This document shows, in pieces, positions 6,395 to 51,243 of a stretch of 64,000 nucleotides of DNA. The notes under the pieces are model-generated. The model was not told the DNA's origin and did no database searches. It saw only the letters and a program-made list of their open reading frames with translations. The translations under genes and the position numbers were made by a program. Position 1 is the stretch's first letter. Every line of letters begins with the position of its first letter. Source of the stretch: Candidatus Hydrogenedentota bacterium (lineage in GTDB: Bacteria > Hydrogenedentota > Hydrogenedentia > Hydrogenedentales > JAGMZX01); contig JAKQEQ010000159.1 in assembly GCA_029556545.1 (NCBI GenBank), positions 29,814 to 93,813 on the forward strand, written 5' to 3'.

Positions 6395-6585
6395 ATAGTC
6401 AGACGTGAACGCGGGGGAAGGTGGAGAGGCATAACGCCTTTTCACTTTGGGGTACGCAGAAGCGGCTGTTGCCGTCGCTTCTTCTCGCGACGTGCTCATA
6501 TACGCGAGTTCGGGTGTGTAACGAAGGCAGAAAGATGACCGTGACGGGGGCGATCCACTCGGGGGACCGCTCAGGAGGTAGAACT

Positions 6586-9500
6586 ATGTCTTATCACAAA
6601 GTATTTCAGGCGTACTGTGTCTTCTGGACCGTTTGCTGCGCGGCATTCGTGCTTGCCGGCACGCCGACGTTCGCCAACGGCGTGTCGCACGGAGTAAACA
6701 TTACGGTAAAATCTGGTGCCGTAGGACTCCCCGCCCCGCCGGTCCCGCGCGACGTCAACGCGAACGCAGACCCCTGGAACGATATTTACAAGGCCGGCGG
6801 CACGGCCCCGGCGCCAGGTTCGACCAGCCTGCTGCGGCTGGACAAGGCGCTCCTCGGCCTGCTCCCCCACGACGACATCGACGCCATTTCCTACGCCGAC
6901 GCCAATGTGGCGCTGCCGCCGCCAGTGCTAATTGCCGACGGGCCCGCCTGGGTTGAGGGAATTCCCGGCGGCGGCTGGGAAGACTGGCAAGGCAACCTCA
7001 TCTTCTGGCACTTCTCGGTGGATGAGTTTGCGCTCGGCGTGTTCAACCCCTTTACCATTCCTCCCAAGTCCGCGGTGCGCAACGAAGTCATGGCGGGCAC
7101 CTCGTGGAACCTGCTGCCCGCGAATCCGAATGAGGCGCACGGCGACTACTTCATCGCCAGCACCGCCTTCCCCGGCGGCAAAGGCAACAATTTCCTGGGC
7201 GCGGATGAAGAACAGTTGACGCTTGATATCTCGCCGCTCGCCGCGCCCCACGCGCAGGACGACCTGAACGGTCTGGACCTGGAGGCGGACCTGATCCTGC
7301 ATCCAGACATCCCGCTACAGCCGGGAGAGTTGTTCTTCTCTCTCGCGCCGGGCTCGCCGTCCCTCGCGGGCATCGACCCCTTCTTCCTGCGGCCCTTCTC
7401 CGAGGCGGACATTCTCACCCCGAACGGCGGGGGGGGATTTCGCATCGCGCAGGTGGTGGACGGCCTGATCGTGAACGGCAACGCGGAACGGCTCGGCATC
7501 CCCTTGGGCAACAACCTGGACGCCCTCTTCGTGGACGGCAACGGCATTCCCTGCTTCTCCGTGCAAATGCTGATCCCCAGCATGATGCCGGGTACTCCGA
7601 ATGCGAATCCCGGCGACATCCTGGTGCCGGACGGCATGTTGTACCCACTCGGCATGCCGGTTCCGGACGGGGTAGCCGACGAGTTGATTCCCGCGCGCGA
7701 CCTCGGCCTGCTCGACCTCGAGAAAATTGGAACGCCGGAAGACCCACCCGACCCGCAAGACGACAACCTGAACGCCCTCGACGCCGAATTGGAGCCGTAC
7801 ACGTCGCCTCCTCCTCCCGTGGAAGGCAAGGACGATGCTCTTGTGCCTGGTGGCGAAGGCGAAGGTGAAGGTGAAGGTGAGGGCGAGGGCGAAGGCGAAG
7901 GTGAGGGCGAGGGCGAGGGTGAGGGTGAAGGTGAAGGCGAAGGTGAAGGCGAGGGTGAGGAACCGAATCCCTTCGGCATCAATATCTCCGTGCGCGTGAA
8001 CAGCGCCGGATTGCCGCCGCCGCCGTGGCCCCGGGACGTCGCGCTCAATCCGGATCCTTGGAACGACGTCTATAAGGCCGGCGCAGGCCGCAACCTCCTG
8101 CGGCTACCGCAGCATCTGTTAGGACTCCTCCCCGGCGACGATATCAATGCCATCTCCTATCGCGATACCGTCGTGTTTCTGCCGCCGCCCGCGCCCGCGG
8201 ACCCGCCTTTCTGGGCGGACTTGCCGGGCCATGGGTGGTGGGACGCCGCGGGATTGCCTATATACTGGCATTTCTCCGTGGACGCGTGGGCGATTGGCGT
8301 CGGATTCAAACCGCTCGCGATGCCGCCGCGCCCGCCGTCTGATGTCAATAACGAAGTCCTGCTTGGCAGACAATGGAATGTGGTGCTCGCGAATCCTAAC
8401 GAGGCGCATGGGGACTACTTCCTCACCAGCATTGTGTTTCCTGTTGGAATGCCAGGGGGCATTGGGTCAAACCTCCTCGTCGGCGACGAAGAAGCGCTCG
8501 GACTCGCCATTCAGAACAACGTCGCGCCCCCGCCAGCCCACGACAACGACGACCTGAATGCACTCGACTTGCACGCGCCGTTGATCGATAGCCGACCCCA
8601 TCCGCTGCCGCCCGGCTGCCTTTACTTCTCATTGGCTAAGGGATCCCCTTCGCTCGGCGGATTCGACCCCACTTTCGGGCGGCCTGTCACCGCCGCGGAC
8701 ATTTTTACGCCTGACGGCGCGGGCGGATTCCGTATCGCGCTGATGGCCGATGGACTGCTTGTAAACGGAAACGCTGAAACGTTGGGGGTTCCCCTCGATA
8801 ATGATCTCGATGCGCTGTTTGTCGACGGACAAGGCATCCCCTGCTTTTCGGTATTAAGCCCCATTGTGAGCGCCCTGCATCAAGCCGCGAATCCCGGCGA
8901 TATCCTCGTTCCCGACGGCATGCTCCTGCCGGCGGGAGGACCCGTACCAGACGGTGTCGCCGACGAAATGATCCCCGCTCGAGACCTCGGGCTCCTCGAC
9001 CTCGAGAAGCTTCCTAATCCCGAGGACCCCGACCCCGACCCGCAAGACGACAATCTGAACGCCCTGGATGCGGAACTGGCCAGTGTACCGCCGGATAACC
9101 CTCCGGGTGAGGGCCAGGACCAGGCCGGTAGCGAAGGAGAAGGAGAGGGCGAAGGAGAAGGTGAAGGTGAGGGTGAAGGCGAGGGAGAGGGCGAAGGTGA
9201 AGGAGAAGGGGAGGGAGAGGGCGAAGGAGAAGGTGAAGGGGAGGGTGAAGGCGAAGGAGAAGGTGAAGGCGAAGGGGAGGGAGAGGGCGAAGGCGAAGGA
9301 GAAGGAGAAGGCGAAGGTGAAGGGGAAGGGGAAGGAGAAGGCGAGGGCGAAGGCGAAGGGGAAGGTGAAGGGGAGGGAGAGGGCGAAGGGGAAGGAGAAG
9401 GAGAAGGCGAAGGTGAAGGTGAAGGGGAAGGGGAAGGCGAAGGCGAAGGAGAAGGCGAAGGTGAAGGGGAAGGTGAAGGCGAGGGAGAGGGCGAAGGTGA

Positions 9501-9855
9501 GGGCGAAGGCGAAGGGGAGGGCGAGGGGGACCCTTGCTTCAGCGAATACCACACGGCGGACCAGTCGCAGAATAATCTCATCGAGTTGACCGAGTTGTTG
9601 CGGGTCATTCAGTTCTATAACAGTGGCGGATTCCACTGCGCCGATGACCCCTCGAGCACGGAAGACGGCTACGTCCCCGGGCCGGGTGCGAACCACGCTT
9701 GTTGCCCCCACGACAGCGACTACGTGCCCTCCGGCCCCGATTGGGAGGTCAAACTGACGGAGTTGTTGCGCGTAATCCAGTTCTACAACTCGGGCGGCTA
9801 CTACTACTGCCCGGACGAAGCGACGGAGGACGGTTTTTGCCCAGGGCAGCCTTGA
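6586..9855 (+). CDS. Secreted protein: two tandem homologous ~400-aa domains, two (Gly-Glu)n linkers, C-terminal ELLRVIQFYN module
   Basis: aggaggt RBS then MSYHKVFQAYCVFWTVCCAAFVLAGTPTFA signal peptide; internally duplicated PRDVNxNxDPWNDxYKAG...NEAHGDYF; GE tracts; EF-like DQSQNNLIELTE. Confidence 0.88.
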   Translation: MSYHKVFQAYCVFWTVCCAAFVLAGTPTFANGVSHGVNITVKSGAVGLPAPPVPRDVNANADPWNDIYKAGGTAPAPGSTSLLRLDKALLGLLPHDDIDAISYADANVALPPPVLIADGPAWVEGIPGGGWEDWQGNLIFWHFSVDEFALGVFNPFTIPPKSAVRNEVMAGTSWNLLPANPNEAHGDYFIASTAFPGGKGNNFLGADEEQLTLDISPLAAPHAQDDLNGLDLEADLILHPDIPLQPGELFFSLAPGSPSLAGIDPFFLRPFSEADILTPNGGGGFRIAQVVDGLIVNGNAERLGIPLGNNLDALFVDGNGIPCFSVQMLIPSMMPGTPNANPGDILVPDGMLYPLGMPVPDGVADELIPARDLGLLDLEKIGTPEDPPDPQDDNLNALDAELEPYTSPPPPVEGKDDALVPGGEGEGEGEGEGEGEGEGEGEGEGEGEGEGEGEGEGEEPNPFGINISVRVNSAGLPPPPWPRDVALNPDPWNDVYKAGAGRNLLRLPQHLLGLLPGDDINAISYRDTVVFLPPPAPADPPFWADLPGHGWWDAAGLPIYWHFSVDAWAIGVGFKPLAMPPRPPSDVNNEVLLGRQWNVVLANPNEAHGDYFLTSIVFPVGMPGGIGSNLLVGDEEALGLAIQNNVAPPPAHDNDDLNALDLHAPLIDSRPHPLPPGCLYFSLAKGSPSLGGFDPTFGRPVTAADIFTPDGAGGFRIALMADGLLVNGNAETLGVPLDNDLDALFVDGQGIPCFSVLSPIVSALHQAANPGDILVPDGMLLPAGGPVPDGVADEMIPARDLGLLDLEKLPNPEDPDPDPQDDNLNALDAELASVPPDNPPGEGQDQAGSEGEGEGEGEGEGEGEGEGEGEGEGEGEGEGEGEGEGEGEGEGEGEGEGEGEGEGEGEGEGEGEGEGEGEGEGEGEGEGEGEGEGEGEGEGEGEGEGEGEGEGEGEGEGEGEGEGEGEGEGEGEGEGEGEGEGDPCFSEYHTADQSQNNLIELTELLRVIQFYNSGGFHCADDPSSTEDGYVPGPGANHACCPHDSDYVPSGPDWEVKLTELLRVIQFYNSGGYYYCPDEATEDGFCPGQP
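7850..7962 (+). repeat. (GGNGAR)n hexamer tract encoding (Gly-Glu)n linker 1
   Basis: Uninterrupted GE dipeptides. Confidence 0.95.
9132..9530 (+). repeat. (GGNGAR)n hexamer tract encoding long (Gly-Glu)n linker 2
   Basis: ~400 bp purine-only-biased GE repeat. Confidence 0.97.
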
Positions 9856-10138: not shown

Positions 10139-13100
10139 ATGTCACACAACACATTCACCACTAGTCTCCGTGTACTTGTAGCCATCCTCTGCGCAGTCGC
10201 GGTCACGTCCGCATGGGCGCAAGGCGCCGCGGACCCGTCCCGGCTGTTGCCGCCCATGCCGCCCGCCGCGGCGGGAATGGCGCCGCAGGCCAAGGCGCCT
10301 GCGGTCGCGTCGCTGGGACCCAGCGACTGCCAGGTCGCGATCAACTTCGACGAACTGACCGCGCCGTGTGGTTTTGCAAGTACGACGCGGCTCACGGGCG
10401 AGTATTTCTACCTTGGGCTCTTGTTCGAAGGACCGGGCGGCAACGACGGCGGCGCCGTGCTCGATGAGTGCGGGGTCTTTGGCGTAACGGGCCACTCGTC
10501 GCCCAATTTCCTCGCGTTCAATACCGGTTCGGCTCTGAGCGACGGCGGCGTGCCGCAGGGCCCGGAAACCATCACCTTCAGCAACCCGATCGTGTCCTTC
10601 GAGGCAGCGTTCGGCACCGGAACCGCCGGCAACCTGACGCTCACCGCGTATGATGAAGGGGGTGGAGTGGTCGATCAGACGACGGGCGCCATCGGACCCG
10701 CGTTGGCGCGCTTTGCCGTCTTCGGACGCGGCATCAAGACGGTCGAGTTCAACACCACCGCCGCCGCCTGGGTCTGCGACGACCTCTGTATCGTCGAGGA
10801 CGGGGGCAGCGGCGTGCTGGTCCTGCTCGAAACCTGCGGCGGCAGTGCCGACTTCATCACGCCCGCCCTGGCGAACCTCAGCCATACCGACGTCACCGTG
10901 GTCAACGATCCGGGCGATTATGAGTTCGCCATTCGCACGGGGCAGTGGGACCTCATTATCCTGGAAGAGTATGGTAATTATATTCCCGAAGCCGCGCTCG
11001 ACGCGTTGGTTGATTACCACAACGGCGGCGGGCGGATTGTTTTCTCCTACTGGGGGCTGGATGCGATTACCGCCCATCCGATCATGGACGTTCTCGGCGT
11101 CTCGTATGTGAGTTCCTATAATACTCCAGAATCCGTCTATGCCTGGAACCCGACCCCGCTCTTCGACACGCCGAACAGCGTGCCTGATCTAACGACGTTC
11201 ATCAATCCGTGCACCCAGGACGGCCACCGGGTCGAGCCGACCTCCGCTGCGGCGATGGCGGGATACACCGCGACGGCGCAAGCGAATGAGGCAGCCCTGA
11301 CCGTCAGCGGCAACGGAAGGGCCATTCTGAACGCCTTCATGCCGGGCACGGTCGACCAGGACGCGGACACCGACGGCAAGAACGACATGATCGCGTTGTA
11401 CGAGAACGAGATTTACCACCACATCGGCCTTGGCGACGCCGCCCTCGCGGCCGCGCCGCCCGCCATCGAGTTCCGTCTCCCGGTCGACGGCGCGGACGCC
11501 GAACCGGTGACGCTCGAAAACCTGAGTCCCGCGCCCATCAACTGGACCAGCGGCGTCGTCCGCGTGCTGATCGCCGCGGCAAGCGATCCGCCGACGTTCT
11601 TCCTGGACGAGTTCATGGCGGAGACCGGCATGGCCGTGGTCGATTACGTCAACACGAGTGGGGCCACGCCGACTGTTTCGGAAATGCTCAACTATGACGT
11701 GGTCATTGTGGCAAGCAACTTCGCGCCTGCCGATCCGGCAGCTCTCGGCAACAATCTGGCCGACTACATCGACATGGGCGGCAAAGTGATCAACGCCCTC
11801 GCCACCTTCGCGGGAGCACCATGGCAGTTGGAAGGCCGCTTTGTCGCGGACGGCTACGGCGCCTTCCTCAATGACGCCCCGACGGAGTTCTTCCTGCACA
11901 CCTTGGGCACTTTTGATCCCGGCCACCCGATTATGGACGGCGTCAGCAGTCTGACTGATAGTCTCGTGGCGACCGCCGTGCCCGCGCCCGGCGCCGTGGT
12001 CGTGGCCGAATGGGACAACGGCACGCCGTTGGTGGCTACTCAAGGCGACACGGTAGTCGGCTTGAACGCTTTCATTCTCGGCACGGGTTACACGGGCGAC
12101 CTCGCGCACATGGTCCGCAACGCCGTGCTCTGGCTCGCCAAGCGCGGCGAGTGGCTGAGCGTCAATCCGCCGTCGGGCACCCTGCTGCCCGGGGAATCCG
12201 TCGTGCTCGATGTCGCGGCCGACGCCACGGGCTTGCCTCTGGGCTTCTATGAGCCCCTTACACTGGGCCTGTGGGGGCCGAAGGGCGGGCGCGCGGAAGT
12301 GGACGTGTCCCTCGTGGTCTTTGACCCGTGCCCGCCGGACGCGAGCTTCTCCCAGCCTGTGGCCATGCCGCACGAGGGCGGCGGAAGCGCATACACCAGC
12401 AGCGATACCTCCAGTTACAAAGTCTATGAAAATGTTTCCGGATTGACCGGGAATATCGTCGCGCTGCAATGGTGGGGTCTCGACCTCGAGTGGCTTCCCG
12501 GCTTCGGCGAATGCGACCGGCCCGCGCCGGACCAGTTCCTCGTGGGCTTCTATACGGACAATGCCGGCCTGCCCGACGCGCTGATCGACGAGGTCACCGT
12601 GACCGCCGTGGTCGAGGATACCGGCCTCGTGCTGTTCGGAGTCTACGAGCAGAAGCGGTACTCCGCGACGCTCCCGAGTCCGGTGGCCATGCCCGAGGGC
12701 TGGATTTCGATCCAGGGCATCGACGCGGACGCGTGCTGGTTCCTCTGGAGCACCTCACCGGTCGGCGACGGTAACGGTGTACAGGATAGCGGCAGCCTCG
12801 TCAACCTCGGCGTTGACCTCGCGCTGTGCGTGACCACCCAAGTCACGGACTTCTGCCCGCCCGAGTCCATCTACAGCCAGCGTCCCGTCACCACGACGCA
12901 GCCGCTCTTTGGCCCCTTCAGCGACGACGCTTCGGGCTTCCAGGTCTATGACGATTTCAGCGGTGTCCCGGGGCCGATCGGCGGGTTGGTATGGTGGGGC
13001 TTCGAGTATTCAGGCGTGCCTTGCACGCGTCCGGTCACCGATTTCCTCATCGGGTTCTATGAAGACGACGGCGGCGGCCAGCCCGCCACGGGCACGCCGA

Positions 13101-14212
13101 TTCACGAGGAGGTAGTGACGGCGGTCAGGGAGGACACGGGCCTTCTGTATCTCGGGACCCTCCCGCTGCTCCGGTACACCGCCCCGCTCTCCGCAGGGGT
13201 GAACATGGCGTCCGGCTGGGTCAGCATCGCGGGCACGAACGGCGACGCATCCTGCGTCTTCGCCTCGGTCGACTCCGACCAAGGCAACCTGCACGCCCTG
13301 CATTGGGATGGTGTTACGTTCGGCCCCCTCGGAAAGGACATGGGTCTCTGCTTCTTGCCTTACATCGTCCCGACATGCACACCCATCGCGGATGCGATCT
13401 GCGACTCGGTGGTGTACGGGACAAACATCGGCCAACCTTCGGAGATCGATAGCTACTCCTGCTCCGGATGGTCGGAGACCGGTCCCGAAGCGGTATACAG
13501 CTTCGCCCCGCTGGCGGATACGGATGTGACAATGATCTTGTCCGACATGACAATGGATCTCGATATCTTCATCCTGGAGAATGAATGCCGACCGGACCAG
13601 TGCATCACGTATGGTAACAACGACGTGACGTTCTCGGCGCTGGGAGGAAGCACGTATTATGTTTCCGTGGACGGCTATGCCGGGGCGACCAGTGACTTCA
13701 CACTGACCATCACCTGCACTGGCGGTGAAGGCGAGGGTGAAGGTGAGGGCGAGGGTGAGGGCGAGGGCGAAGGCGAGGGTGAAGGTGAAGGCGAAGGTGA
13801 GGGCGAGGGCGAGGGCGAAGGCGAGGGTGAAGGTGAAGGCGAAGGTGAAGGTGAAGGCGAGGGTGAAGGCGAAGGCGAAGGTGAAGGTGATCCTTGCTTC
13901 AGCGAATGGCATACGGCGGACCAGGACCACAGTAGCCTGATCGAGTTGACGGAACTATTGCGTGTCATCCAGTTCTACAACTCCGGCGGGTTCCACTGTG
14001 CGGATGACCCGGGATCAACGGAAGACGGTTACGTGCCGGGCGTCGGCGCGAACACCACGTGCTGCCCGCACGCGAGCGACTACGCGCCCTCCGGGCCGGA
14101 CTGGCAGATTGCGCTGACCGAGCTGCTGCGGGTCATCCAGTTCTACAACTTCCCCGGCTATCACTACTGTCCGCTTGACGGGACGGAGGACGGCTTCTGC
14201 CCCGGACTTTGA
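10139..14212 (+). CDS. Large secreted multidomain protein with GE linker and C-terminal ELLRVIQFYN module
   Basis: Signal peptide MSHNTFTTSLRVLVAILCAVAVTSAWA; two ThuA/GATase-like segments; PPC-like domain (SYSCSGWSETGPEAVYSF...YYVSVDGY); GE linker; DQDHSSLIELTELLRVIQFYN. Confidence 0.88.
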   Translation: MSHNTFTTSLRVLVAILCAVAVTSAWAQGAADPSRLLPPMPPAAAGMAPQAKAPAVASLGPSDCQVAINFDELTAPCGFASTTRLTGEYFYLGLLFEGPGGNDGGAVLDECGVFGVTGHSSPNFLAFNTGSALSDGGVPQGPETITFSNPIVSFEAAFGTGTAGNLTLTAYDEGGGVVDQTTGAIGPALARFAVFGRGIKTVEFNTTAAAWVCDDLCIVEDGGSGVLVLLETCGGSADFITPALANLSHTDVTVVNDPGDYEFAIRTGQWDLIILEEYGNYIPEAALDALVDYHNGGGRIVFSYWGLDAITAHPIMDVLGVSYVSSYNTPESVYAWNPTPLFDTPNSVPDLTTFINPCTQDGHRVEPTSAAAMAGYTATAQANEAALTVSGNGRAILNAFMPGTVDQDADTDGKNDMIALYENEIYHHIGLGDAALAAAPPAIEFRLPVDGADAEPVTLENLSPAPINWTSGVVRVLIAAASDPPTFFLDEFMAETGMAVVDYVNTSGATPTVSEMLNYDVVIVASNFAPADPAALGNNLADYIDMGGKVINALATFAGAPWQLEGRFVADGYGAFLNDAPTEFFLHTLGTFDPGHPIMDGVSSLTDSLVATAVPAPGAVVVAEWDNGTPLVATQGDTVVGLNAFILGTGYTGDLAHMVRNAVLWLAKRGEWLSVNPPSGTLLPGESVVLDVAADATGLPLGFYEPLTLGLWGPKGGRAEVDVSLVVFDPCPPDASFSQPVAMPHEGGGSAYTSSDTSSYKVYENVSGLTGNIVALQWWGLDLEWLPGFGECDRPAPDQFLVGFYTDNAGLPDALIDEVTVTAVVEDTGLVLFGVYEQKRYSATLPSPVAMPEGWISIQGIDADACWFLWSTSPVGDGNGVQDSGSLVNLGVDLALCVTTQVTDFCPPESIYSQRPVTTTQPLFGPFSDDASGFQVYDDFSGVPGPIGGLVWWGFEYSGVPCTRPVTDFLIGFYEDDGGGQPATGTPIHEEVVTAVREDTGLLYLGTLPLLRYTAPLSAGVNMASGWVSIAGTNGDASCVFASVDSDQGNLHALHWDGVTFGPLGKDMGLCFLPYIVPTCTPIADAICDSVVYGTNIGQPSEIDSYSCSGWSETGPEAVYSFAPLADTDVTMILSDMTMDLDIFILENECRPDQCITYGNNDVTFSALGGSTYYVSVDGYAGATSDFTLTITCTGGEGEGEGEGEGEGEGEGEGEGEGEGEGEGEGEGEGEGEGEGEGEGEGEGEGEGEGDPCFSEWHTADQDHSSLIELTELLRVIQFYNSGGFHCADDPGSTEDGYVPGVGANTTCCPHASDYAPSGPDWQIALTELLRVIQFYNFPGYHYCPLDGTEDGFCPGL
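13722..13888 (+). repeat. (GGNGAR)n hexamer tract encoding (Gly-Glu)n linker
   Basis: Uninterrupted GE dipeptides. Confidence 0.95.
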
Positions 14213-42230: not shown

Positions 42231-42896
42231 CTACAGTTCCGCGCATAGCGGGAGCAGCGCCTCCGCCATGCGCAAGTCTTCTTCCGTCTTGATAATGAGG
42301 CCGCCGAGCCGGTCCACCGGATGAAACCCGATTCTGCCGGAATACGTGGCCGTCTTGCCCGCGTCCGCGGCGGCCAAGTACGTGGCGCGGCGCCAGCCCG
42401 TGATGCTCCACGGGATGCGCTGCACCGGCGTCAGGTCCTGCGAATTCGTTTTCGCGTCGAAGGTGAAATTGACTGGCCGCCCTTCATAGGCGCACTCGAT
42501 CTGCTCGGGCGTATAGCAGAGCATCGTGTCGTAATCGCTCGCGATCATGGCGCGCACGAACGCGCGCACCTCGTCCGCCGTCAGCAGCGGCGCAATCGAG
42601 TGCACCTGAAACACCCGCTCGCAGGGATGCGCCGTCAGAAATTCATACACGAACTGCTCGCTGGTCGCCGCGTGGTTCGCCAGTTGCTCGGGGCGGCGAT
42701 GAAAGGAAACGCCTTCCGCCGCGGCAATGTTCCCGAACTCGGGGTGCTCCGAATTCACCCAGATTTCGTCGAAACACGCGGCGGCCTTGCATTTCCGAAT
42801 CGCGCGCGTGATCAAGGGGACCCCGCCCAATTCGCGCAGATTCTTCCGCGTCAACCGCTGACTGCCCATCCGGGCCGGGACCATCGCAATATTCAT
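42231..42896 (-). CDS. Acylneuraminate/KDO-type cytidylyltransferase family protein
   Basis: MNIAMVPARMGSQRLTRKNLRELGGVPLITRAIRKC; ATSEQFVYEFL; QVHSIAPLL. Confidence 0.88.
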   Translation of the reverse strand: MNIAMVPARMGSQRLTRKNLRELGGVPLITRAIRKCKAAACFDEIWVNSEHPEFGNIAAAEGVSFHRRPEQLANHAATSEQFVYEFLTAHPCERVFQVHSIAPLLTADEVRAFVRAMIASDYDTMLCYTPEQIECAYEGRPVNFTFDAKTNSQDLTPVQRIPWSITGWRRATYLAAADAGKTATYSGRIGFHPVDRLGGLIIKTEEDLRMAEALLPLCAEL

Positions 42897-43037
42897 CGCT
42901 TGCCTCGAAGTACACGCCGGGCGACAACGCCGTCGGGAGCATCGAGTATACCGCGCCGGGCACGCGGATGTGGAGTGCGGCCCTTTACTTGGGTATACTA
43001 CGCCCCGCCCTGGAGTCACGACCCGCGGAGAAGCGCC

Positions 43038-43259
43038 ATGCTGTATTTCAAATGCGCCCAGTTTGTGCCCGGCAAGGGCGACGCCTGGACCTATTACGAG
43101 TGCGACGACGGCAAGAAGGTCCTGCGGCAGTTGACGCACATTCCCGCGACCCGCGAACTCACGCGCGTGCCCGACCCCATCGTGAAGAAACTGGTCCGGC
43201 CCGAACTCCTGCTCGATGCCTCCGCTGAGGAATTCATGGGGCTCTGGGGCACGTCCTGA
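43038..43259 (+). CDS. Small (73 aa) hypothetical protein
   Basis: MLYFKCAQFVPGKGDAWTYYECDDGKKVLRQLTHIPATRELTRVPDPIVKKLVRPELL; ggag upstream; directly upstream of PHP gene. Confidence 0.6.
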   Translation: MLYFKCAQFVPGKGDAWTYYECDDGKKVLRQLTHIPATRELTRVPDPIVKKLVRPELLLDASAEEFMGLWGTS

Positions 43260-43283
43260 ACCCGAACATCGAGGTAATCCATC

Positions 43284-44162
43284 TTGCCCATCCGAATCAA
43301 CCACCCTTATAAAGATGGCGCGTGCTCCTGGCTCAAGGGGAACCTGCACACGCACACGACGAACAGCGACGGCGACCTCAGCCCGCAGGAAGCCGCCGCC
43401 GCCTACGCGGCGCTCGGGTACGACTTCCTCATGTTCAGCGATCACGACTGCTTCACGAAAACGAAAGGGCTGGACCCGTGCGGCATGGTGCTGATCCCCG
43501 GCAACGAGATCACGGCCTACGGACCCCACCTGTTGCACGTCAACGCGCACCGGTACATCGATCCCGATGAAGACCGGCAAGCCATGATCGACGCCATCAA
43601 CGTGGACGGCGGCTTCTGCATCGTGTGCCACCCGAATTGGCTCGAAGACTACAACCACTGCGATCACAAGTTCCTCGACGAGTGGCGCGACTACCTCGGC
43701 ATCGAAATCTACAACGGCGTGTGCCTGCGCGCCGAAGGCAGTCCGATCGCCACGGACCGCTGGGACCGCCTCCTCAGCGCCGGGCGGCGCGTCTGGGGTT
43801 TCGCCAATGACGACAGCCACCGGTCTGTGGACCGCGGCATCGCGTGGAACGTCGCGAAGGTCGAGTCGCGCGTCCCGGCGGCCATCGTGCGCGCCCTGCG
43901 CGAAGGGCGTTTCTACGCCAGCACCGGCGTCGAGATTTCGCGTATCCGCGTCGACGACGCGACAATTACCGTCGAGACCGCAAACGCGCAGCGGTGCCGC
44001 GTTTTCGCCGATCTGGGTCGCCTCCAGGCAACGCAGGACGGTCCCGCGATCTCGTTTACGGTCCCGGAGGATTTCCCGTACACCTACGTGCGCGTGGAAT
44101 GCTACGGGTTCGGCGACGACACGGCCTGGACGCAGCCGTTCTTCGTGGAAAAGACCGCATGA
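43284..44162 (+). CDS. PHP-domain metal-dependent phosphoesterase-like protein
   Basis: LKGNLHTHTTNSDGDLSPQEAAAAYAALGYDFLMFSDHD; GNEIT; HPNW; ANDDSH. Confidence 0.88.
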   Translation: MPIRINHPYKDGACSWLKGNLHTHTTNSDGDLSPQEAAAAYAALGYDFLMFSDHDCFTKTKGLDPCGMVLIPGNEITAYGPHLLHVNAHRYIDPDEDRQAMIDAINVDGGFCIVCHPNWLEDYNHCDHKFLDEWRDYLGIEIYNGVCLRAEGSPIATDRWDRLLSAGRRVWGFANDDSHRSVDRGIAWNVAKVESRVPAAIVRALREGRFYASTGVEISRIRVDDATITVETANAQRCRVFADLGRLQATQDGPAISFTVPEDFPYTYVRVECYGFGDDTAWTQPFFVEKTA

Positions 44163-44192
44163 CGCATCATAGGCGCGGGGGCGTCTCGGAGG

Positions 44193-44240
44193 TCCGCCGC
44201 AGGCGGATTAGACCACGGGCGGGACACCCCTGCCACACTG
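44193..44240. repeat. Dispersed hairpin element
   Basis: TCCGCC-GCA-GGCGGA followed by imperfect palindrome ccacgggcgggacacccctgccac. Confidence 0.5.
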
Positions 44241-44262
44241 TATAACGGGAGGAAACGCTGAT

Positions 44263-45093
44263 ATGGATTTCGTCTTTCAACGCAGTTACCGCGGACCGCT
44301 CAAGGGCGTCCTGCTCGATTGGGCCGGCACGACCATGGACTATGGCTGCTACGCGCCCGCGGTCGTGTTCTTCGAGGTCTTCAAGCGCCAGGGCGTACCC
44401 ATCACGATGGAGCAGGCCCGCGAGCCGATGGGCGCGCACAAGCGCGTCCATATCCAGAAGATCACGCAGATCGAGGCGGTGCGCCGTCTCTGGGAGGAGA
44501 CGCACGGGCGGCCGCCCGCCGAGGAGGACGTGGACCGCATGTTCGCGGAGTTCGTCCCGCTGCAATTGCAGTGTCTGGCCGATTACGCGGACCTGATCCC
44601 CGGCACGCTCGAGGCCGTGGCCGACTTCCGCAAGCGCGGACTCAAGGTCGGCTCGACCACCGGCTACACCGGCGAGATGATGCAACTCCTGCGCGCCGAG
44701 GCGACCAGGCGCGGCTACACGCCGGACGCGACCGTCTGCGCCACCGACGTGCCCGCGGGCCGGCCCGAACCTTGGATGTGCCTCGAAAACGCAAAGCTGC
44801 TCCGCATCTTCCCGATGGAAAGCATCGTGAAGGTGGGTGACACGCTCCCGGATATCTTCGAGGGACTGAACGCCGGCATGTGGACCGTCGGCCTCGCCAT
44901 GACTGGCAACGAACTCGGGCTGAACGAAGCGGAAATCGCCCGACTCGACCCAGAAACCCGCGAACGCAAACGCCGCCGCGCCTACGAGCGCATGGCCCAA
45001 GCCGGCGCGCATTACGTCGTCGACGCCATCTCCGACGTGCCGCCGCTGCTCGACGAAATCAACGCCCGCCTCGCCCGCGGCGCGCGGCCATAG
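44263..45093 (+). CDS. phnX: Phosphonoacetaldehyde hydrolase
   Basis: KGVLLDWAGTTMDYGCYAPAVVFFEVFKRQGV; MGAHKRVHI; GSTTGYTGEMM; PAGRPEPWM; VKVGDTLPDIFEGLNAGMWTVGL. Confidence 0.95.
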   Translation: MDFVFQRSYRGPLKGVLLDWAGTTMDYGCYAPAVVFFEVFKRQGVPITMEQAREPMGAHKRVHIQKITQIEAVRRLWEETHGRPPAEEDVDRMFAEFVPLQLQCLADYADLIPGTLEAVADFRKRGLKVGSTTGYTGEMMQLLRAEATRRGYTPDATVCATDVPAGRPEPWMCLENAKLLRIFPMESIVKVGDTLPDIFEGLNAGMWTVGLAMTGNELGLNEAEIARLDPETRERKRRRAYERMAQAGAHYVVDAISDVPPLLDEINARLARGARP

Positions 45094-45365: not shown

Positions 45366-49310
<3,945 letters not shown>

Positions 49311-49323
49311 TTGACGCTGGAAA

Positions 49324-51243
49324 ATGAAGACGCTCTCCGGCATAACAGGCATCCTGTTCTTCATGCTGTGCGCGGTGTTAGGCTCGGACGTAGCAGCCGA
49401 GCCGCGCATCTTGATCGTCGGTGACAGTTGGGCGACGGGCATCAATGCGTTTCGTGTACTCGATGAGGTGTTGTCAGAATACGGCATAGAAGACGTTGAA
49501 ACAGTTGGAAACTTCACGGCCATCGGCGGCACAACCGCCGCCCAATGGGCATCAAACAGTTTTCTCGCAATAATCATGGCCCAACTTGCGGCCCAGCCCA
49601 CCATCGACACCATCCATCTCGTCATCGGTGGAAACGATGTCTTCGGCTTCATTGCGCACACCAACGTTTACTCATCGGTGCCGATCTATTTGCAGTGGCT
49701 GACTTACGTCAGTGTGATCCAGGCAAATGTTATGAAGGTGGCGTCGTATTGCCTGGCGGTTCCGCAAGTCAAGCACGTGGTTATCGCCGACTATGATTAT
49801 ATAAACCGAGTCCTGGCTCACGCCTTGGCAGGCTACGACTTCGGTTGGATGACCCAGCGCATGGTAAACGAGTGCTTTATCCAAGCGGGCAAGGCAAAGT
49901 TGGCCGTTGCCAAGTCACTCCAGGGGTGCGAATACGTGCAGAACTGGGGCCTGTTACAGCACCACTTCGATATCCCCGCCGGCGCGCCGGCCCCGGGCCA
50001 ATACCCTGATTACTCGCCTTACCCGGGGGGTAACCCCAACTATCCTATGCCCGACGTAGCTTTCGATCCCCTGGGTCCGTTTCCCGGCGATGGCATTCAT
50101 CCCAATAAAGAAGCGCACAAGGTCATGCTGCGCAATGCGGTCGAGCAATTTTATATCCACTGGTATCCGCCCACGATCGAGGGAGAAGGTGAAGGAGAGG
50201 GCGAAGGCGAAGGCGAAGGCGAGGGTGAGGGCGAAGGCGAGGGTGAAGGAGAAGGAGAGGGAGAGGGAGAGGGAGAGGGTGAGGGTGAGGGTGAGGGTGA
50301 GGGCGAAGGTGAAGGCGAAGGTGAAGGCGAAGGCGAAGGTGAAGGCGAAGGTGAAGGTGAGGGCGAAGGCGAAGGTGAAGGCGAAGGCGAAGGTGAAGGC
50401 GAAGGCGAAGGTGGGGGTGAGGGTGAGGGTGAAGAGCCGCCGCCTTGCCTCGAATACTGGAGCGATGATACCCCCCTTGTTATTGCCGATTTCGATCAGG
50501 TGGATTCACATATTACCGTTCCTTACCTCGGTGTCATCACAGACGTGAACGTGACCGTAAGAATCACCCATGGGGCGGCGGGCGACCTAGTGCTGTGGAT
50601 CAAGTCGCCCTCCGGCGCGTCGGTCTTTCTCGTATCCCAATTGGGCGACGCGGAACTCGGGTTCGCGGATACAACCTTTGACGACGAGGCCCCTACAGCC
50701 ATCATCTTTGCCGAGCCGCCTTATCTCGGGACTTACGCACCTATTGGCCAGTTGTCAACATTCGACGGCAGTTATGCCCAAGGCGTATGGACACTATGTG
50801 TCTTCGACGGCAAGACAGGCAATGAGGGCGTGCTCGACGGGTGGCGTTTGACCTTCAACGATTCCTGCGATGTTCCGGGCGAAGGAGAGGCAGCGGAAGG
50901 TCAAGCACCTGGTGAGGGAGAGGGAGAAGGAGAAGCCGGCTCGATAACGCACGCGGCGGACCAGAATGGCGATTACAAGGTCGATTTGTCGGAGTTGCTG
51001 CGGGTCATTCAGCTCTCTAATTCGGGCGGCTACTCCTGCGCTCCGACACCCGGGGCCACGGAAGACGGCTATGCGCCCGGACCGGGCAGCCGCGATTGCG
51101 CGCCCCACTCGAGCGATTACGCGGGTGGCGCGGACTGGCGCATCAGCCTGTCCGAGTTGCTCCGGCTGATTCAGTTCTTTAATTCGGGCGGCTATCACCC
51201 ATCTCCGGAAGGCGAAGACGGATTCGGCCCGGGGCGATTGTGA
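49324..51243 (+). CDS. Secreted SGNH-hydrolase-like protein with GE linkers, P-domain and C-terminal [10 protein letters not shown] module
   Basis: Signal peptide; GDSW, GGND, DGIHPN SGNH blocks; GE tract; P-domain; [21 protein letters not shown]. Confidence 0.88.
50178..50435 (+). repeat. (GGNGAR)n hexamer tract encoding (Gly-Glu)n linker
   Basis: Uninterrupted GE dipeptides. Confidence 0.95.

Follow-up and report, generated by a model that had tools for sequence, protein, structure and literature searches.

The ELLR module, our name for a ~96-residue module carried four times by the window (the whole 64,000-nucleotide stretch analysed, G000:C167:29814-93813), is probably a divergent, dockerin-like module for docking, by which secreted proteins would be tethered to the cell envelope; its receptors are likely to belong to the cohesins. 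A role in docking or retention in general can be held with good confidence; that the receptor is specifically a cohesin is the weakest step of the argument and is evenly balanced between holding and failing. The source genome (G000) is a 6.1-Mb draft of 195 contigs from a member of the Hydrogenedentota.

Four copies of the module in the window

Translation of the four ORFs placed all four modules in frame, as the first-pass annotation had claimed, and the coordinates it had assigned to them were off by at most ~11 bases (Table 1). Each copy lies at the very C-terminal end of its protein, whose N-terminus resembles a signal peptide and which contains a (GE)n linker, and the half-repeat that had been described, ELLRxIQFxN...(T)EDG[FY]xPG, is present in both halves. 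The lowest identity among the pairs compared is 57%, between copies 1 and 4 (E = 1e-39), so the likeness of the copies is not due to chance. In copy 4, the second Cys pair is gone and replaced by S and G. A weak match of Pfam EF-hand_6 to copy 3 (E = 0.0033) spans loop 1 and the start of the helix that follows. The long pure Gly-Glu repeats of this genome (9136-9525 and the other (GE)n tracts) are linkers that attract a false Pfam TrAA12 match.

Table 1. Positions of the features in the window and of selected loci elsewhere
Feature	Position	Strand	Remarks
Module copy 1	9529..9852	+	C-terminus of ORF 6421-9855; query for genome search
(GE)n linker before copy 1	9136..9525	+	
Internal (GE)n linker, copy 1 protein	7852..7959	+	Separates two duplicated N-terminal domains
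Module copy 2	13889..14206	+	C-terminus of ORF 10139-14212; 81% identical to copy 1
(GE)n linker before copy 2	13724..13885	+	
Module copy 3	49017..49304	+	C-terminus of ORF 45366-49310; folded copy (residues from 49008)
EF-hand-type loop 1, copy 3	49026..49061	+	Assigned from sequence, loop conservation and weak Pfam EF-hand_6 match
EF-hand-type loop 2, copy 3	49182..49223	+	14 residues, lengthened; conserved first Asp and last Glu
P_proprotein (P-domain) before copy 3	48603..48920	+	Pfam PF01483, E = 1.1e-11
Short GE-rich linker directly before copy 3	48942..49001	+	
Module copy 4	50947..51237	+	C-terminus of ORF 49324-51243
P_proprotein (P-domain) before copy 4	50539..50856	+	Pfam PF01483, E = 6.8e-12
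(GE)n linker, copy 4 protein	50182..50409	+	Between GDSL-like hydrolase region and P-domain
Conserved cohesin/dockerin cluster, G000	contig C33, ~39.8-44.6 kb		Cohesins at C33:42094-42855, 42855-43907 and 43917-44615
GNSGSPV/ELLR protein loci	L058, L315-L319, L322, L323, L325, L329, L333, L334		
Cys/Gly-motif tails	L289:10418-11116, L291:1986-2729, L295:6120-6809, L294:7400-8998, L235		Like MYXO-CTERM-type sorting signal

Predicted fold, calcium-type loops and paired cysteines

Copy 3 was modelled using AlphaFold2 from an alignment of 62 sequences (pLDDT 94, pTM 0.82). The model contains a helix (residues 16-27), a hairpin (31-33/44-46), a second helix (70-81) and a second hairpin (85-87/95-97). 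According to this confidently predicted fold, the module would consist of two pseudo-symmetric units, each made up of an EF-hand-type loop, a helix with the ELLRxIQ signature and a beta-hairpin.

The earlier reading of loop 1 as an EF-hand loop agreed well with the copies from the source genome, in which D1 was kept in 93 of 95 and both I/V8 and E12 in all 95; N/D/S3 and D/N/S5 are kept as well. The second loop had been described as having lost its acidic residues, which proved wrong: its first Asp is found in almost all of 158 copies and its last Glu in 99% of them, and this near-invariance speaks against a degenerate loop. Loop 2 is instead a variant, DYxP(xG)xDWxIxLxE, that an insertion of 1-3 residues extends to 13-15 residues in most copies, with a canonical 12-mer in a few (L063, and L188 with DTNKDWEISLSE). 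The ligand residues are conserved, and the module may bind calcium via these EF-type loops.

The recurring Cys pattern was also confirmed, with the cysteines behaving as two pairs. Joint loss of Cys 88 and Cys 96 (numbering of the folded construct) accounts for 17 of 18 cases (P = 6.6e-22, or 2.8e-14 after reduction of the set at 75% identity), and that of Cys 33 and Cys 53 for both of two cases. These paired losses make two disulphides, 33-53 and 88-96, likely. On the two helices, R21, Q24, R75 and Q78 are 99-100% conserved and may form two equivalent contact faces, by analogy with dual-binding dockerins.

Abundance, position and cargo of the module

A search of the source genome using copy 1 as the query returned 111 module matches, and a relative's genome contained up to ~190 module candidates. 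The module was present in 41 of the 68 Hydrogenedentota genomes examined. In a wider genome scan with at least 396 relatives, the best 80 were all titled Hydrogenedentota, Hydrogenedentes or MAGs; the module may also occur beyond this phylum. That the module is an assembly or low-complexity artefact is next to inconceivable: the draft is fragmented, many of the copies are found at the ends of contigs and the GE linkers consist of repeats, but the module itself is not low-complexity, its copies diverge normally, and its spread over those 41 independent genomes refutes this reading.

Among the 96 full-length copies of the source genome, 86 had a closed C-terminal end, and 72 of these ended three residues or fewer from the stop codon. 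A GEGEGE linker lay just upstream of the module in 68 of the 96, and a signal-peptide-like hydrophobic segment, as scored by hydropathy rather than by a trained predictor, was found in 71 of the 74 ORFs with a complete N-terminus. The cargo was highly varied, including internalin-like LRR, P-domain, PKD, Ig and CHRD domains, beta-helices, C25, M14 and papain peptidases, and choice-of-anchor Q and B domains. As the first-pass annotation had anticipated for a docking module, a C-terminal position on many diverse secreted proteins recurred in related genomes. At least seven copies of the source genome are, however, N-terminal, immediately after the signal peptide, and further copies are internal; the N-terminal architecture was seen again in three proteins (L195, L200 and L228).

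These positions bear on whether the module is a signal of the type IX CTD, PEP-CTERM or MYXO-CTERM kind, which sits at the C-terminus, directs export or sorting, and is recognised and cleaved by dedicated machinery. Such a signal would fit the stop codon that ends most copies and the companion domains typical of these systems in some carriers (choice-of-anchor Q and B, GBD_T9SS_assoc, C25 peptidases), but no tag that is removed from the C-terminus can operate from an N-terminal or internal position, and the C-terminal position is obligatory for a type IX CTD. The module also has no hydrophobic tail, and no exosortase was found in four module-rich genomes (G000, G001, G006 and G013), on which grounds a PEP-CTERM logic was rejected. 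We consider a cleaved signal highly improbable. A model of SprA, from the type IX system, gave no match, nor did it in control genomes. Of the two roles proposed earlier, "docking or cell-surface sorting", docking is the best-supported, and sorting is weakened by the N-terminal and internal copies.

The carriers might suggest that the module binds an outside ligand (a glycan, a mineral, a host or a biofilm matrix) or merely stabilises its protein via calcium, with no dedicated receptor. Many of them look adhesive, and EF-type loops are frequent in extracellular calcium-binding and adhesive modules. We regard this as improbable, since ~100 unrelated cargos, the linkers, the terminal placement and the replacement of the module by Dockerin_1 in one fusion protein (see below) point to docking, and the invariant R and Q of both helices better suit a conserved protein surface.

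Three proteins of the source genome (L072, L090 and L096, on contigs C131, C159 and C170) carry the two half-modules with ~50-75 residues of other sequence between them, so that each half may fold or act alone. L238:3939-6422 (contig C100) encodes a polytopic membrane protein, glycosyltransferase-like by eye, with a degenerate ELLR module at its end; this protein is possibly an envelope component of the system. A protein of ~850 residues combines a trypsin-like GNSGSPV motif, with Pfam trypsin matches under the cut-off, and a C-terminal ELLR module. It is kept in many, if not nearly all, low-copy genomes, so that a protease may belong to the core of the system.

Relation to dockerins and EF-hands

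No described family claims the module, and curated Pfam and NCBIfam models gave nothing above cut-off for the window copies. Neither Dockerin_1 (PF00404, Pfam) nor the GC-type dockerin (NF041540, NCBIfam) matched any of the four window copies at E <= 10. Among 62 module relatives, weak Dockerin_1 matches at E <= 1 were found in 16 (best 1.1e-4) and weak EF-hand_6 matches in 56. A profile of the module aligned with a profile of 21 dockerins from the same phylum (probability 87.5, E = 3.6e-6), over 23 columns only, in which loop 1 and the start of its helix were matched to the second dockerin repeat. In a Foldseek search against the PDB, dockerins were the top match and made up most of the 28 rows, with TM-scores by target of ~0.5 and a best E of 0.99, which is not significant. 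A PDB sequence search with the module profile retrieved only weak EF-hand chains, the best EF-hand-type match having E = 0.05. Among open-licence papers, searches on Hydrogenedentota combined with dockerins, EF-hands or type IX secretion, and on cohesin or dockerin in Planctomycetes, brought up no description of the module.

The loop-helix units of the module resemble those of dockerins, yet by the defining tests of the Dockerin_1 family the module does not belong there: it stays under the Dockerin_1 cut-off, and each of its loop-helix units is followed by a beta-hairpin in a domain of ~96 residues. The earlier description of the module as a "dockerin in logic", with a partner elsewhere, is the best-supported reading, there being no described family, dozens of diverse secreted carriers and, in the genome, a cohesin/dockerin gene cluster with a cohesin-module fusion.

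Cohesins and cohesin-ELLR fusions

We searched the relatives for three families, cohesin, Dockerin_1 and ELLR, and the search for a receptor covered named families and selected stretches. The co-occurring receptor that the first-pass annotation had proposed to look for has a strong candidate in a conserved cohesin/dockerin cluster of the source genome. The products of this cluster are a small Dockerin_1 protein and a Dockerin_1/TSP3-like one, a 254-residue cohesin-ELLR fusion, and two proteins (cohesin-TM) that have a membrane segment at the C-terminus. Pfam cohesin (PF00963, cut-off 24.1 bits) matched the fusion at 30.4 bits and the short cohesin-TM at 37.8 bits; the longer cohesin-TM had no Pfam match and is called a cohesin from its location in the cluster and from where it falls in the cohesin tree. 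Comparable clusters were found in five further genomes (G001, G006, G013, G015 and G021).

A small secreted cohesin-ELLR fusion is encoded in at least 19 genomes, in families f1, f6, f9, f10 and f11. Thirteen of the fusion-bearing genomes, in which the fusion was detected using our own cohesin HMM (E <= 0.004), hold just 1-6 ELLR copies; for several of these, Pfam cohesin alone stays under its cut-off. In G044, a dockerin-rich genome without ELLR, the matching cluster encodes a cohesin-Dockerin_1 fusion, the cohesin of which groups with those of the cohesin-ELLR proteins of G015 and G021 (42% identity) with support of 82/95, short of full support. A conserved protein family, represented by L228 in the source genome and L195 and L200 in others, has the order ELLR, GE linker, cohesin, PKD, beta-helix.

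Two further arrangements were observed. L290 (G021, contig C210) and L150 combine a cohesin, a GE linker, an ELLR module, an Ig-like part and a C-terminal membrane segment in one protein. Several cohesin and other surface proteins end in a Cys/Gly-rich motif (CGC, GCFGG, CCGGC) followed by a hydrophobic helix and basic residues; the NCBIfam CTERM models did not match the tails of L289, L291, L295 and L294.

The module might instead dock to a non-cohesin envelope receptor, such as an S-layer, outer-membrane or polysaccharide component, the cohesin-ELLR fusion being one cargo among many. The counts are lopsided, with 111 modules against ~5 Pfam cohesins in the source genome; cohesins persist in genomes free of ELLR; and the cohesin of the fusion could be there for the few genuine Dockerin_1 proteins that the cluster encodes. 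Against this, no such receptor was found among the named families and selected stretches, the fusion is kept in genomes with few ELLR proteins, which would be odd for an arbitrary cargo, and the exchange for Dockerin_1 in the fusion suits a cohesin world. On balance, a non-cohesin receptor appears rather unlikely.

Across genomes, the association of ELLR with cohesin presence was weak (Fisher P = 0.07). In family f3, two genomes had ELLR with a cohesin and four others had neither. One genome, G027, had an ELLR protein with no cohesin detected. The 11 ELLR-rich genomes (at least 10 copies) carried 0-8 Dockerin_1 domains, and the six Dockerin_1-rich genomes (at least 10 domains) carried no ELLR. 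This absence of overlap has a chance probability of ~0.28 even with the genomes counted as independent, and since the six Dockerin_1-rich ones all come from a single family, they do not provide statistically independent cases of mutual exclusion. It looks like one tag having been swapped for the other across genomes, a pattern that is clean and not significant.

A proposed docking model for ELLR proteins

In the model that we favour, with a cohesin as receptor, ELLR proteins would be exported via their signal peptides, presumably of the Sec type, and the module would fold outside the cytoplasm with calcium and disulphides, usually spaced from its cargo by the Gly-Glu linker. The module would then plug non-covalently into an envelope-bound receptor, most likely a membrane-anchored cohesin, and in this way display its cargo on the cell surface or keep it there; we infer that ELLR proteins are located at the surface. 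The cohesin-ELLR protein would act as an adaptor and could bring Dockerin_1 proteins into the same assembly. More tentatively, and with doubt slightly outweighing confidence, a second dockerin class, disulphide-stabilised and elaborated with beta-hairpins, might have evolved in Hydrogenedentota and displaced type I dockerins as a genome-wide tag that displays up to ~200 secreted proteins on envelope-bound cohesins. This would be a cell-wide, non-cellulosomal surface-display code with cohesin partners of its own.

If the module is dockerin-like, its 100 or more unrelated secreted carriers in a poorly known phylum would be among the largest docking repertoires seen and would indicate a general surface-display system. 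The module would place hundreds of unannotated proteins in a functional context, supply a ready family definition absent from Pfam and NCBIfam, and offer testable receptor candidates. A disulphide-locked dockerin analogue could also find use in protein engineering.

Comparison with known systems

Loop 1 resembles an EF-hand (PF13405, PF00036) in being a 12-residue calcium loop with an exit helix; the model differs in having no entering helix, and the window copies fall under the curated cut-offs. C-terminal sorting domains (type IX CTD, PEP-CTERM and MYXO-CTERM) are likewise found at the C-terminus of diverse secreted proteins, whereas the module is also N-terminal or internal, is predicted to be compactly folded and has no membrane segment. 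SLH and similar anchoring modules occur N- or C-terminally on diverse secreted proteins, with linkers. The ELLR module shares this placement at either terminus and these linkers, but it differs from SLH in that the Pfam scans gave no such match and its predicted fold is not all-helical. The GC-type dockerin (NF041540) is comparable as a named dockerin-like anchor domain, and the small Dockerin_1 protein of the cluster in the source genome matched it weakly (E = 0.0065).

The differences from type I dockerins are considerable. A type I dockerin is a 60-70-residue domain of tandem ~22-residue repeats, whereas the module is ~96 residues long (against ~60) and has a beta-hairpin with a conserved EDG after each helix, two probable disulphides, a lengthened loop 2 and the ELLRxIQ helix signature. 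Cohesin-dockerin pairs have mostly been studied as cellulosome components; unlike the carriers of cellulosomal dockerins, the module carriers sampled are not mainly plant-wall enzymes. The module nevertheless resembles type I dockerins in its two loop-helix units, its calcium-type loops with an acidic position 12, and its mostly terminal position after linkers across many secreted proteins. The likeness to the type I and cellulosome system extends to the genomic linkage of the module to cohesins and to the occupation of the same fusion slot by Dockerin_1 in G044.
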